Shown here: piece by piece, positions 33,140 through 63,070 of the stretch
How positions within the stretch are numbered: the first letter of the stretch is position 1
Layout: each line of letters begins with the position of its first letter
Source: Glandiceps talaboti
Taxonomy: Eukaryota > Hemichordata > Enteropneusta > Spengelidae
Assembly (NCBI RefSeq): GCF_964340395.1
Contig: NC_135556.1
Span: 11,311,410 to 11,375,409, forward strand
DNA length: 64,000 nt
Direction of reading: 5' to 3'
Notes under the pieces: generated by a model
What the model saw: the letters and a program-made list of their open reading frames with translations, nothing else
Database searches by the model: none
Told to the model about the DNA's origin: nothing
Program-made: the position numbers and the translations under genes

Positions 33140-36100
33140 TTATTCAGATTTTTCCTTCCCTACATTTCTACAACAAACTTGACAACATAGTCCTAACAGT
33201 TTCTGTAAAACATAGACTATCAAGCCAACGGCAAGTAATAAAACTAACATAACATCTAAAAGAAAATACTGGAATGTATTCAGTTGAAATGAAGCAGGAC
33301 GAAGATGTTGACCACCATGTTTAATAACATGTTCAATCCAGAAGGCTGTCGTCTCTGAGGGCGTCATTGGTGAATCTCTGTGAATTGCAGATAGTCTCAT
33401 AGCATTCTCTTTGTAGCTGTAAGATACGAAACGGTCAAATGGGAATCTCTTTTATTTTGGTTGTGGGATTCAGGTATAAATCCCTAAACGTTGTAACAAA
33501 TGTAATATCACATAAACGTACAACATGCATCATGTAAGTTTTCAAAGCAAGCAAACAAACAAACAGCCAAACAAACAAACAAACAAACAAACAAACAAAA
33601 TACAACACACAAAAAACAACCAACCAACAAAGGAACACACAAACTTAAACACGACTTACTTCAAATCAGACTTTCCAATCGAACTAATTTTTTGACTCCA
33701 GACATTGATCTCACATTATGCAAATTTATTTACTAAAATCATTCTTTTTCAAAAGTGATTATCATATTTACGCCAACACTGTTTTGAATTTGGAAAAGGA
33801 CTATAGTTTTCATAGGTAAGAGTATAGTACTTTTGACCTTCGCACCCACCAGGTAAATTACGTAACTATATATAGACGATGTAGGTTCACTATCATATCT
33901 CCACTTGTACTTGTGCCCTTCAATTCAATCGAAGTAGGGCATAATAATATGACCAATGTGTGGAATTTACTAAATTACGAATATGCCATAGGCAACATAT
34001 ATAATTAAACATTTAAAACTTCAAAAAAAGCAAAAACATACATATTACCTTTTGTCCTGTATCACTGTTGTAATTGCATTATAAATCTTGTCCTGCGTTA
34101 GTGTTCTGACATCTACTGTAAGACACATCCCCTTATCAACTAGTCGTGCAAAGTTATCATACTGATCACCATGTAGTGGAACTCCTACCATCGGTACGCC
34201 ATGATAAATGGCTTCATATACACCATTAATGCCACCGTGGCCTACGAAGGCTTTCGTTTTTGGGTGTCCTGTAGGGTTAGAAAGTTAATTCCGAGAGAGA
34301 TATTTCATCAAAATCACGATATCAATCTTATTACATTTGCCATTCTGCAGAAAGGCAATAAAAGACTGAGGTAAGAGATCATAAACTTTTATGAAAATGT
34401 ACATGGCGATCAGTGGCGAGTAGTTATTGGAATCCCTTTGAAGGGGTATCATGGACATTTGAGACATTTCCCTTTCAAATATATGATGGTAAAAGTATGT
34501 TTGTTGAAAACAAAACAATGTTTCAATCCTACCTAAGAGATCATTTTGAGGCAACCACTTCGCAAGCTTGGTATTTGATCCAACTCCAGGTGGGGAAGGA
34601 CCATCATATCGCATAATGACTTTCTGGGGAAGTCTAGCAAATGCTCTCACAAACATTTCAGCCTTGTCCATGTTAGATGCCAGGTTTATCAACGATCCCA
34701 ATGAAAACACAACAATCCCATTCTCAGCTGATTGGACATATTCATCAAATTCCTATCAAAGTAAGAGATATGTAATCAATTATATAATATTTATGTATAT
34801 CATGGTAATATCCAAATTCCTGCTAAAAGAAATACATCTAACTGTGATGTCACAATGGTAATATCCATTCACCATGACCACATCTATGACCATTTCTCAA
34901 ACTTAATATTCACCGATGCAGTATGTAAACAGTGGAATGACACCCTTTTCTACATTCAGTTAGTTGAATGACACCCTCTGCACTGTAAAAACAGTGGAAT
35001 GACAGCTGCCACTCTATAAAATAAGTGGAATGACAGCATTTCCAATGCTTCGGAACTGGAATGACAGCATTTACAGTGGGTAAACAGTGGAATGACACCC
35101 TTTTCTGCATTCAGTTAGTTGAATGACACCCTCTGCACTGTAAAACCAGTGGAATGACAGCAGCCACGCTATAAGATAAGTGGAATGACAGCATTTTTAA
35201 TGCTTTGAAACTGGAATGACAGTATTTCCAGTATGTAAACAGTGGAATGACACCCTTTTCTGCACTCATTTAGTTGAATGACACCCTCTGCACTATAAAA
35301 CAAATGGAATGACAATCGCCACTCTATAAAATAAGTGGAATGACAGCATTTGCAATGCTTTGGAACTGGAATGACAGCATTTCCAGTATGTACAGAGTTG
35401 AATGACACCCTTTTCTACATTCAGTTAGTTGAATGACACCCTCTGCACTGTAAAACCAGTAAAATCATGTTCAACTAACTGGATGTATAGAAAAGGGTGT
35501 GTCATTCCACTCTTTACATACTGGAAATGCTGTCAATGGTTTTTCGCCATTCGGGTTGTCATTCGTTTTTATAGGGTCACCCAAGCACACCATGTGGTGC
35601 AAACTGGACAATGATCGTGCGTGTCACGTATAAGGCATCAGATGTAATACATGTAGCTAACAAAATGTTCTTGTTTATTTATTTTTTTATTTATTTAATT
35701 TATTTAAAACACTGCATCCATAAATGGGTTTTCATGCAGATGTTAAAAAAAATATATAAAAATGTACAAAAAGCAGAACACATACAATGAAAACAGTAAG
35801 GTGGAAAATGAAATCTACAATGACACATAAAAAACACAAAGCTACTTGATTCTATTGTTTGCAACAATGGATGCCCTATATGCAAAAGATCTATTATGCA
35901 CATTTGGGATATTGGGTAATTGCTTCTAGTATTGTGCGAATGAATTGAAGAGTTTGTAGTCAATAGATCTGAAATATAGGATGGAACTTTGTTTCTGAGA
36001 CATTTGTTAACAAGTTTGTTGAAATGTTTATCGTGCCTTTCTTGAATTGTTGGCCAGTCTAACGAGATTCTAGCAGCAGTAACGTGATCAGATTTTTTCA

Positions 36101-62400: not shown

Positions 62401-63070
62401 CCAAAAGCAAGCAATTGAATACTAGGTAAGACATTGCGTAGTGTCCAAGGTTTTTTAACCTCTGGAAAAAGTTCATCTGGTCTGGTAGACCTGAATACAT
62501 AGCTGGAACATAGGATGGATAGGATGGAATATGGTGGAATGAACTATCCATCATTGGGAAAATCCGTTGTGTTGACACTGAAACAAATGGCAGGCCTAGC
62601 TTTCCTATGATCAGCCCGTGACATAGGTTGAAATTGTTGGCCAATACAATATCATACTTTGATGACCTCAATAACTCGAAAAGGTCATCGTCCTGTAGCA
62701 GCATTTCACAATCACGTGATATTTTTTGTATGGACTCCAGTATGTCCCAGATACTAACCGTGCCGTTTAATGAACCTGCCATCTTCTTTTCAACCGATTC
62801 CTTCATGTATTCATCGGTAAAGGTACCCTGGTACTTCACGAATGAAAACTTCGATTCGTCAGCTTTGATATTTTTCGCTTGCTGTATTTGGAATCCATGA
62901 TTGATCAGCATGGTAGCGTTGTGTCCTCTATCAACCATGGTTCTCCCTACCTTTGACATAAACATGTAGTGGCTCCCTAGCGGTATACCTGGGATAATCA
63001 GAAGTTTACTGCATGACGATATTGTTACCAGTGATGTATATAGTACAAGAAACCCGAAAACGAGTGCCAT
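59429..63070 (-). CDS. UGT-D: UGT8-like UDP-glycosyltransferase
   Basis: Fourth and most compact member. Exons: 62216-63070, 61045-61264, 60024-60243, 59429-59705, 523 residues. Start at MALVFGFLVLYTSLVTIS, with an alternative in-frame ATG four codons upstream. His34 in GSHYMFM, Asn145 in [63 protein letters not shown] with donor His394. C-terminal helix near [15 protein letters not shown] and KEKSE end. Introns carry no large insertion, so this copy best shows the ancestral spacing. Exon 1 and the promoter side pair it with UGT-C. Confidence 0.96.

Follow-up and report, generated by a model that had tools for sequence, protein, structure and literature searches.

Asparagine in place of the catalytic aspartate in four tandem UDP-glycosyltransferase genes of Glandiceps talaboti, one case of a dyad that varies across the genome

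Enzymes of the uridine diphosphate (UDP)-glycosyltransferase (UGT) family work with a catalytic His-Asp pair; what becomes of such an enzyme when the Asp is an Asn? The question is raised by a 64,000-base stretch of the genome of the acorn worm Glandiceps talaboti (contig NC_135556.1, positions 11,311,410 to 11,375,409; the whole stretch is termed the window, and coordinates are positions within it unless another contig is named). Four tandem UGT genes, A, B, C and D, lie on its minus strand at 33140-63070. A reading of the bare sequence (the original prediction) held that all four copies have Asn at the position of the vertebrate catalytic Asp, and alignment with His-Asp paralogues from the same genome bears this out; its interpretation of the change gains support in part. 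The window genes are one case of a genome-wide replacement of the dyad Asp, which the original prediction had not foreseen; that wider pattern is a larger finding than the four genes themselves. Loci and contigs elsewhere in the genome carry labels in L and C, respectively, and published work is cited by PubMed Central number, in each case from extracts of the paper.

Dyad residues of UGT A-D

Splice models give proteins of 525 amino acids for UGT A (39069-33140) and B (48889-44209) and of 523 for C (57700-53141) and D (63070-59429), all read from the minus strand. Each gene has four coding exons, GT-AG introns with phases 0, 1 and 2 common to all four, and no internal stops, as expected from the earlier statement that the genes are intact with their exons in phase. 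The intact models also rule out chance or a frame error as the source of the Asn. Pairwise protein identity is 83-92%, and the ratio of nonsynonymous to synonymous divergence (dN/dS; NG86, six pairs) is 0.27-0.37, so the genes are under purifying selection. The Pfam family PF00201 (UDPGT) matched 7 of 7 assembled proteins scanned, covering residues 22-518 of 523 in D (E 6e-126), with A matched via exon 1. Hydropathy peaks mark a hydrophobic stretch near each terminus of A-D, and all four end in a KEKSE tail (KxKxx type); end to end, the predicted layout is that of a UGT of the endoplasmic reticulum (ER) lumen, with a putative signal peptide, a membrane span and a dilysine-type tail.

The catalytic His, located by codon lookup, lies in the motif GSHYMFM at residue 36 in A and B (CAC at 38962..38964 and 48782..48784, respectively) and at residue 34 in C and D (CAC at 57599..57601 and 62969..62971). 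The strand-4 motif is VLANYVNPC in A; B, C and D share VLANNFNLC. Codon lookup and alignment put Asn147 (A, B) or Asn145 (C, D) at the position of the dyad acid. Its codon is AAC in all four genes (A, 38629..38631; B, 48449..48451; C, 57266..57268; D, 62636..62638, all minus strand). The His in each copy, the residue numbers and the motif letters of the original prediction were all recovered from the rebuilt genes.

Same-genome His-Asp paralogues served as alignment partners, joined for the C-terminal half by human UGT2B chains in PDB. In an alignment of 34 sequences, the paralogues L017, L027, L028 and L041 combine His in the His column with an Asp where A-D have their Asn, and share a downstream Cys with A-D. 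This column is the true dyad-acid column, because four His-Asp paralogues from the same genome place their Asp there. The original prediction had allowed that a conserved Asp, for example that of a DD pair ahead of the motif, might occupy the catalytic column after all. Set against the paralogues, this pair (D residues 127-128) lies 17-18 residues upstream of the Asn column. Column 127 holds Asp in L027 and L028 alongside their catalytic Asp, Asn in L017 and Gly in L041, and the pair was rejected as the true catalytic Asp since it aligns outside the dyad column.

In an AlphaFold model of D exon 1 (mean predicted local distance difference test [pLDDT] score 82.8), built on an alignment of the 34 same-genome first exons, the first turn of helix 33-47 carries His34, and strand 141-145 ends with Asn145; we take these to be the places of the dyad in glycosyltransferase family 1 (GT1) enzymes. 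An earlier model from the four window copies alone (pLDDT 29.4) was discarded. Profiles of exon 1 searched against PDB sequences gave two chance matches in one search and none at E 0.01 in another. Checked for the features of the PF00201 family, A-D have the His that opens the first long helix (a helix modelled in D) and lack the Asp that closes strand 4; they stay within the GT1/UGT fold family because the catalytic Asp is not part of Pfam's fold definition.

Residues of the UDP-sugar (donor) half can be numbered by human UGT2B7, whose H35, D151, T373, H374 and D398 are among the mutated positions in Table 1 of PMC9412022. The equivalents of His374 and Asp398 are invariant, as aligned, in 13 of 13 proteins assembled to full length. 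The Thr373 position, by alignment, is Gly in A-D (60215..60217 in D) and in L009, a change that the original prediction had not foreseen; the remaining eight of the 13 have Thr, Ser, Asn or Tyr there. Among genes read by exon only, it is Gly in L011, and Ala and Thr in the C8 pair of L012. A signature scan shows the donor signature ending in Asp-His in B, C, D (final His at 60137..60139 in D) and L009, and in Asp-Gln in A. Compared with the published UGT signature, [FVA]-[LIVMF]-[TS]-[HQ]-[SGAC]-G-x(2)-[STG]-x(2)-[DE]-x(6)-P-[LIVMFA]-[LIVMFA]-x(2)-P-[LMVFIQ]-x(2)-[DE]-Q (PMC7781194), A misses one position (Gly for [TS]) and B, C and D miss two (Gly, and His for Gln), with full matches in 3 of the 13 proteins (L017, L024 and L041). 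As judged from sequence, the donor half is retained with adjustments while the dyad varies clade by clade.

Dyad states and constraint across the genome

The genome searched comprises 590,416,875 bases in 47 contigs. Exon 1 of D and the His-Asp genes L028 and L041, used as queries, gave at least 45, at least 45 and at least 40 matches, respectively, from 50, 50 and 44 first-pass candidates; genes distant from all three queries could escape. From the 45 matches to D exon 1, we counted the 34 unbroken first exons that cover both the His and the Asp columns (4 in the window, 30 elsewhere). These 34 are common to all three query lists, which, read by eye, hold no further full-length places. Since the two His-Asp queries recover the same 34, the outcome of the survey does not stem from the choice of a window gene as query. 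The remaining 11 matches represent nine broken or partial loci and were left out of the counts; their Asp column holds Asn in L029, Cys in L033, L040 and L042, Phe in L043 and L044, a gap in L045 and L046, and Cys (an unreliable call) in L047. The 34 are not independent, L010/L011 and L027/L028 being near-copies.

The His-Asp dyad is kept in only 4 of the 34 intact first exons, and one further gene has His-Glu. Asn stands at the Asp column in His-Asn (13), Thr-Asn (4) and Val-Asn (1) genes, Cys or Ser in Leu-Cys (4), Val-Cys (1), Arg-Cys (1) and Ile-Ser (1) genes, and His in Ile-His (2), Val-His (1) and Leu-His (1) genes. Neither His nor an acid is found at the dyad in 16 of the 34.

In a tree computed with the dyad columns removed, support is 99/99 for the window clade of seven, 100/98 for a C8 cluster of six His-Asn genes, 100/99 for a four-gene C1 cluster and 99/100 for an 11-gene clade whose Asp column holds Cys, His or Ser. 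The His-Asp gene L017 joins the C8 cluster (99/99 for the seven). The tree leaves the backbone unresolved and gives L041 and L035 long branches, and no count of Asp losses or regains can be read from it; the program also warned of long branches meeting, for L017 and L026 with the rest and for the C8 group with the window group. In the 11-gene clade (L024-L026, L030-L032, L034 and L036-L039, on contigs C23, C24, C11 and C14), the His column is filled by Leu, Val, Ile or Arg and the Asp column by Cys, Ser or His. The C14 set of this clade pairs His at the old Asp position with Val, Ile or Leu at the His position, and the base may possibly have been swapped to the old Asp position in these genes.

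Within groups, dN/dS of exon 1 is 0.18-0.41, groups without the His included (NG86; six groups with 28 of the 34 genes, L017, L023, L025, L026, L035 and L041 falling outside all of them). Every member of the window clade (7 of 7) and of the C8 cluster (6 of 6) has Asn in the dyad column. The 18 Asn-bearing genes are split evenly between the codons AAC (nine) and AAT (nine), so the Asn is conserved despite synonymous difference. The 13 His-Asn genes share 278 columns, of which 58, the dyad columns included, are invariant; this figure serves as context and not as a test, these genes having been chosen by dyad and clade. The change at the dyad looks like a replacement under selection and not decay, which was rejected on the dN/dS values of A-D (0.27-0.37) and of the wider groups. 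The earlier view that the Asn is fixed in the family agrees with its uniformity in the window and C8 groups and with the purifying selection on them.

What the altered dyad may mean

In the GT1 mechanism the His takes the proton of the acceptor, and the Asp may support the His (PMC10932239). We put at about even the chance that A-D are active UGTs, with acceptors that ionise easily as their most likely substrates. They would be ER-lumen UDP-glycosyltransferases of the GT1/UGT fold in which the His-Asp dyad has turned into His-Asn and the UDP-sugar half is retained. His34/36 would stay at the mouth of the site, and Asn145/147 would hold its imidazole by a neutral hydrogen bond, without charging it. 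Such a weaker general base would suit acceptors that are readily ionised or can react without being deprotonated, i.e., acidic phenols, carboxylic acids, thiols, amines and indoles, with brominated phenols and haloindoles as candidate natural acceptors in an acorn worm. The pKa of 2,6-dibromophenol is near 7, and bromophenols would be acidic enough for the need for a dyad Asp to be relaxed. Bromophenols, haloindoles and bromoquinones are reported at high levels in enteropneusts (PMC6315191). Activity, hydrogen bond, acceptor class and the link to haloorganics are what we infer for A-D. By analogy with Arabidopsis UGT76C2/C3, human UGT2B10 and DcUGT2 of Dactylopius coccus (compared below), dyad changes can shift the chemistry without loss of activity, and the earlier suggestion that chemistry or acceptor class differs in A-D fits these published enzymes. 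The proposal also draws on the intact frames of A-D and their dN/dS of 0.27-0.37, the PF00201 matches, the invariant donor-site His and Asp, the modelled positions of His34 and Asn145, and the Asn kept through AAC and AAT codons alike. The pattern of His retention speaks for it as well: all 18 genes that keep the His have Asp, Glu or Asn as its partner, and the His is lost in 11 of 11 genes with Cys, His or Ser, although those 11 form one clade and the His is lost also in 5 of the 18 Asn genes.

Several points weigh against this proposal. A published description of family 1 enzymes treats the Asp as conserved and catalytic (PMC5397973). In the insect enzyme SfUGT33F28, a His-to-Leu change largely reduced or abolished O-glucosylation and gained no N-activity (PMC7781194), so a dyad change does not simply redirect the chemistry. 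The Gly at the Thr373 position of A-D and L009 could mean impaired donor binding and not just an altered base. The supposed tie between Asn and acceptor is a correlation with the chemistry of the animal group, not of this species.

The acid of the dyad might instead have moved, in keeping with the other suggestion of the original prediction, that a different acid completes the dyad. Another carboxylate, for which the best candidate is the Asp175 that follows strand 5 (62546..62548 in D, from alignment columns), could pair with the His or replace it, leaving the old Asp column free to vary among Asn, Cys, His and Ser. An acid (28 Asp, 1 Glu) stands at column 175 in 29 of 29 genes that lack Asp or Glu at the dyad, and 4 of the 5 genes with a dyad acid have a gap there; a reading of the 20 columns that are acidic throughout the window clade showed no other column with such a pattern. 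In the secondary structure of the model, the loop after strand 5, placed by the strand order of GT-B folds, would lie at the same sheet edge as His34 and Asn145. However, L017 carries both the dyad Asp and an Asp at 175, the alignment is gappy around this column, and an Asp of L041 could have been shifted into it. Moreover, the four gapped genes represent few lineages (L027 and L028 are near-copies, L035 and L041 long branches), and the pattern may therefore be the mark of one ancestral difference. We regard a relocated acid as unlikely, if well short of negligible. A similarly low probability attaches to A-D being UGT pseudoenzymes, whose role would be to bind a UDP-sugar or a lipophilic ligand, or to modulate other UGTs as partners in hetero-oligomers; oligomers between UGT isoforms are known (PMC12390933). 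The 16 genes without His and dyad acid would suit such a role, 13 of them having within-group dN/dS of 0.20-0.41, and C-terminal halves are complete in L020, L023, L024 and L034, the four among them with assembled later exons. The Gly at the donor-contact position of A-D points the same way. Against this stand the donor-site His and Asp, invariant in all 13 assembled proteins, the catalytic His kept in A-D and the activity of published altered-dyad enzymes.

Relaxed constraint or slow decay, with the Asp lost as individual copies came to matter little, would accommodate the many dyad states and the nine broken or partial loci, but dN/dS is well below 1 in every group tested, the donor residues are invariant, and the dyad is uniform in the window and C8 groups, where so few of the shared columns are; we consider it very improbable. 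Adenosine-to-inosine RNA editing could in principle turn AAC or AAU into an Asp codon and yield an ordinary His-Asp enzyme. All 18 Asn codons are a single A-to-G step from Asp, which lends little support because the same is true of any Asn codon, and editing cannot restore the genes with Cys, His or Ser or an absent His. To our knowledge, heavy recoding is known from cephalopods and not from this kind of animal. Editing was rejected as the main answer and seems to us the most far-fetched of these explanations.

The proposal of active enzymes with a weakened base can be extended from A-D to the genome, at the price of a good deal of plausibility. The UGT repertoire of the acorn worm might have been rebuilt around acceptors that need little or no base, the dyad being swapped clade by clade for His-Asn, Thr/Val-Asn, hydrophobic-Cys and hydrophobic-His under purifying selection. 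The substrates would be the animal's own halogenated phenols and indoles, and catalysis would proceed with no base or with one now located at Asp175 or where the dyad Asp used to be. We hold this reading to be improbable.

Most of what is known about the role of the Asp in family 1 glycosyltransferases comes from point mutants. Here one animal genome offers a natural series in which a single scaffold bears at this site Asp, Asn, Glu, Cys, His or Ser, either together with the His or in its absence; for most of the series, selection has been shown. The series could reveal what the dyad is needed for and whether acidity of the acceptor can substitute for it. Annotation of UGTs by their dyad residues may wrongly call active enzymes dead, and acorn worms may have in these genes enzymes that allow the carrying of toxic haloorganics.

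Gene structure, neighbouring features and comparison with known UGTs

Exon 1 of D (62216..63070; splice model and Pfam PF00201) encodes the N-terminal acceptor domain, residues 1-285, followed by exon 2 (61045..61264), exon 3 with the UDP-sugar signature (60024..60243) and exon 4 (59429..59705), which holds the hydrophobic membrane-anchor stretch seen in hydropathy, the KEKSE tail and the stop. The splice models of the other genes place exons 1 to 4 at 56846..57700, 54900..55119, 54274..54493 and 53141..53417 in C, at 48029..48889, 47343..47562, 45939..46158 and 44209..44485 in B, and at 38209..39069 (also matched by PF00201), 34533..34752, 34049..34268 and 33140..33416 in A, all on the minus strand. 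Between pairs of A-D, synonymous divergence is 0.190-0.460 in exon 1 and lower, 0.105-0.181, in exons 2-4; the difference suggests that the 3' half of the genes has undergone gene conversion or exchange. Arrays of AT/TA and TC dinucleotides and tandem repeats of 155 and 248 bases occupy 46268-46761 (within intron 2 of B), 34919-35460 (within intron 1 of A), and the intergenic stretches 58912-59003 and 50633-51120.

Elsewhere in the window, a WD40-repeat exon (Pfam WD40; 6599-6982, minus strand) presumably resembles the splicing factor PLRG1, and frames at 4109-4522 (no Pfam family) and 5141-5419 have, by eye, the appearance of further exons. Stretches at 35700-36430 (minus strand; no Pfam family at 36098-36430) and 39582-39818 (plus strand) look by eye like remnants of a retrotransposon (long interspersed nuclear element reverse transcriptase). 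Rfam returned no matches. A search for relatives of the UGTs gave one pattern match in viral contigs, which was not confirmed, and none in phages. On contig C40 (51,222 bases), COX1 occurs at 12741-44951 in three tandem mitochondrial copies, 15,435 bases apart; the contig is a concatenated mitochondrial genome, probably an assembly artefact. The mitochondrial order is ND2, tRNAs N, W, A and Y, COX1, tRNA-S, COX2, then ATP6, COX3, ND3, ND4L, ND4 and ND5, the names other than COX1 and the tRNAs coming from a reading of the frames (ARAGORN calls the W gene SeC, anticodon tca). Neither the ND2 and COX2 frames nor the COX1 frame past its 48th codon contains AAA, AGA or AGG, and TGA is frequent inside the mitochondrial genes. 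Six further mitochondrial frames, some of which overrun the genes, hold 2 AAA, 3 AGA and 3 AGG among 2025 codons. ATA stands at four COX1 positions that we take to be Ile in most animals. Judged by the mitochondria of acorn worms, this codon use very probably marks an enteropneust hemichordate and not an echinoderm or mollusc.

By sequence, the closest solved relatives of A-D are vertebrate UGT2B enzymes (UGT2B7, 2B15, 2B17 and 2B10), and the human C-terminal domains match D residues 273-446 (E 4e-54 to 1e-59). Human UGT2B enzymes likewise have a membrane anchor and a dilysine tail. In contrast to UGT2B, A-D have Asn for the catalytic Asp and Gly for Thr373, and B-D end the signature in Asp-His and not Asp-Gln. 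The Asp-His ending of B-D invites comparison with vertebrate UGT8, a ceramide/bile-acid galactosyltransferase that retains the dyad Asp. A His-to-Gln change in UGT8 is reported to widen the donor from UDP-galactose to UDP-glucose, although the His/Gln switch is called not simple (PMC10932239); by analogy, this hints at the use of UDP-galactose by B-D.

Enzymes with altered dyads are known from other groups. DcUGT2, the carminic acid C-glucosyltransferase of the insect Dactylopius coccus, is a membrane-bound animal UGT that is active without the usual His (PMC5719414), the residue that A-D keep. It has Asn at the His position, and its authors write of a 'catalytic asparagine' at 128, which may be a slip for aspartate (PMC5719414). 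This ambiguous sentence aside, the listings and extracts of papers searched, a set of limited coverage, showed no report of Asn at the dyad-acid site in a UGT family of this kind. Human UGT2B10, in which Leu replaces the His, appears specialised for N-glucuronidation (PMC7781194). Arabidopsis UGT76C1-3 and UGT76C5 are family 1 enzymes with a non-canonical Cys-Asp dyad, and for UGT76C2 and UGT76C3 a shift in N/O selectivity is described: both prefer N-glycosylation, and alanine at either dyad residue lowers N- and raises O-glycosylation (PMC12246196). In UGT76C, then, the His has been replaced and the Asp kept, whereas in A-D the His is kept and the Asp replaced.

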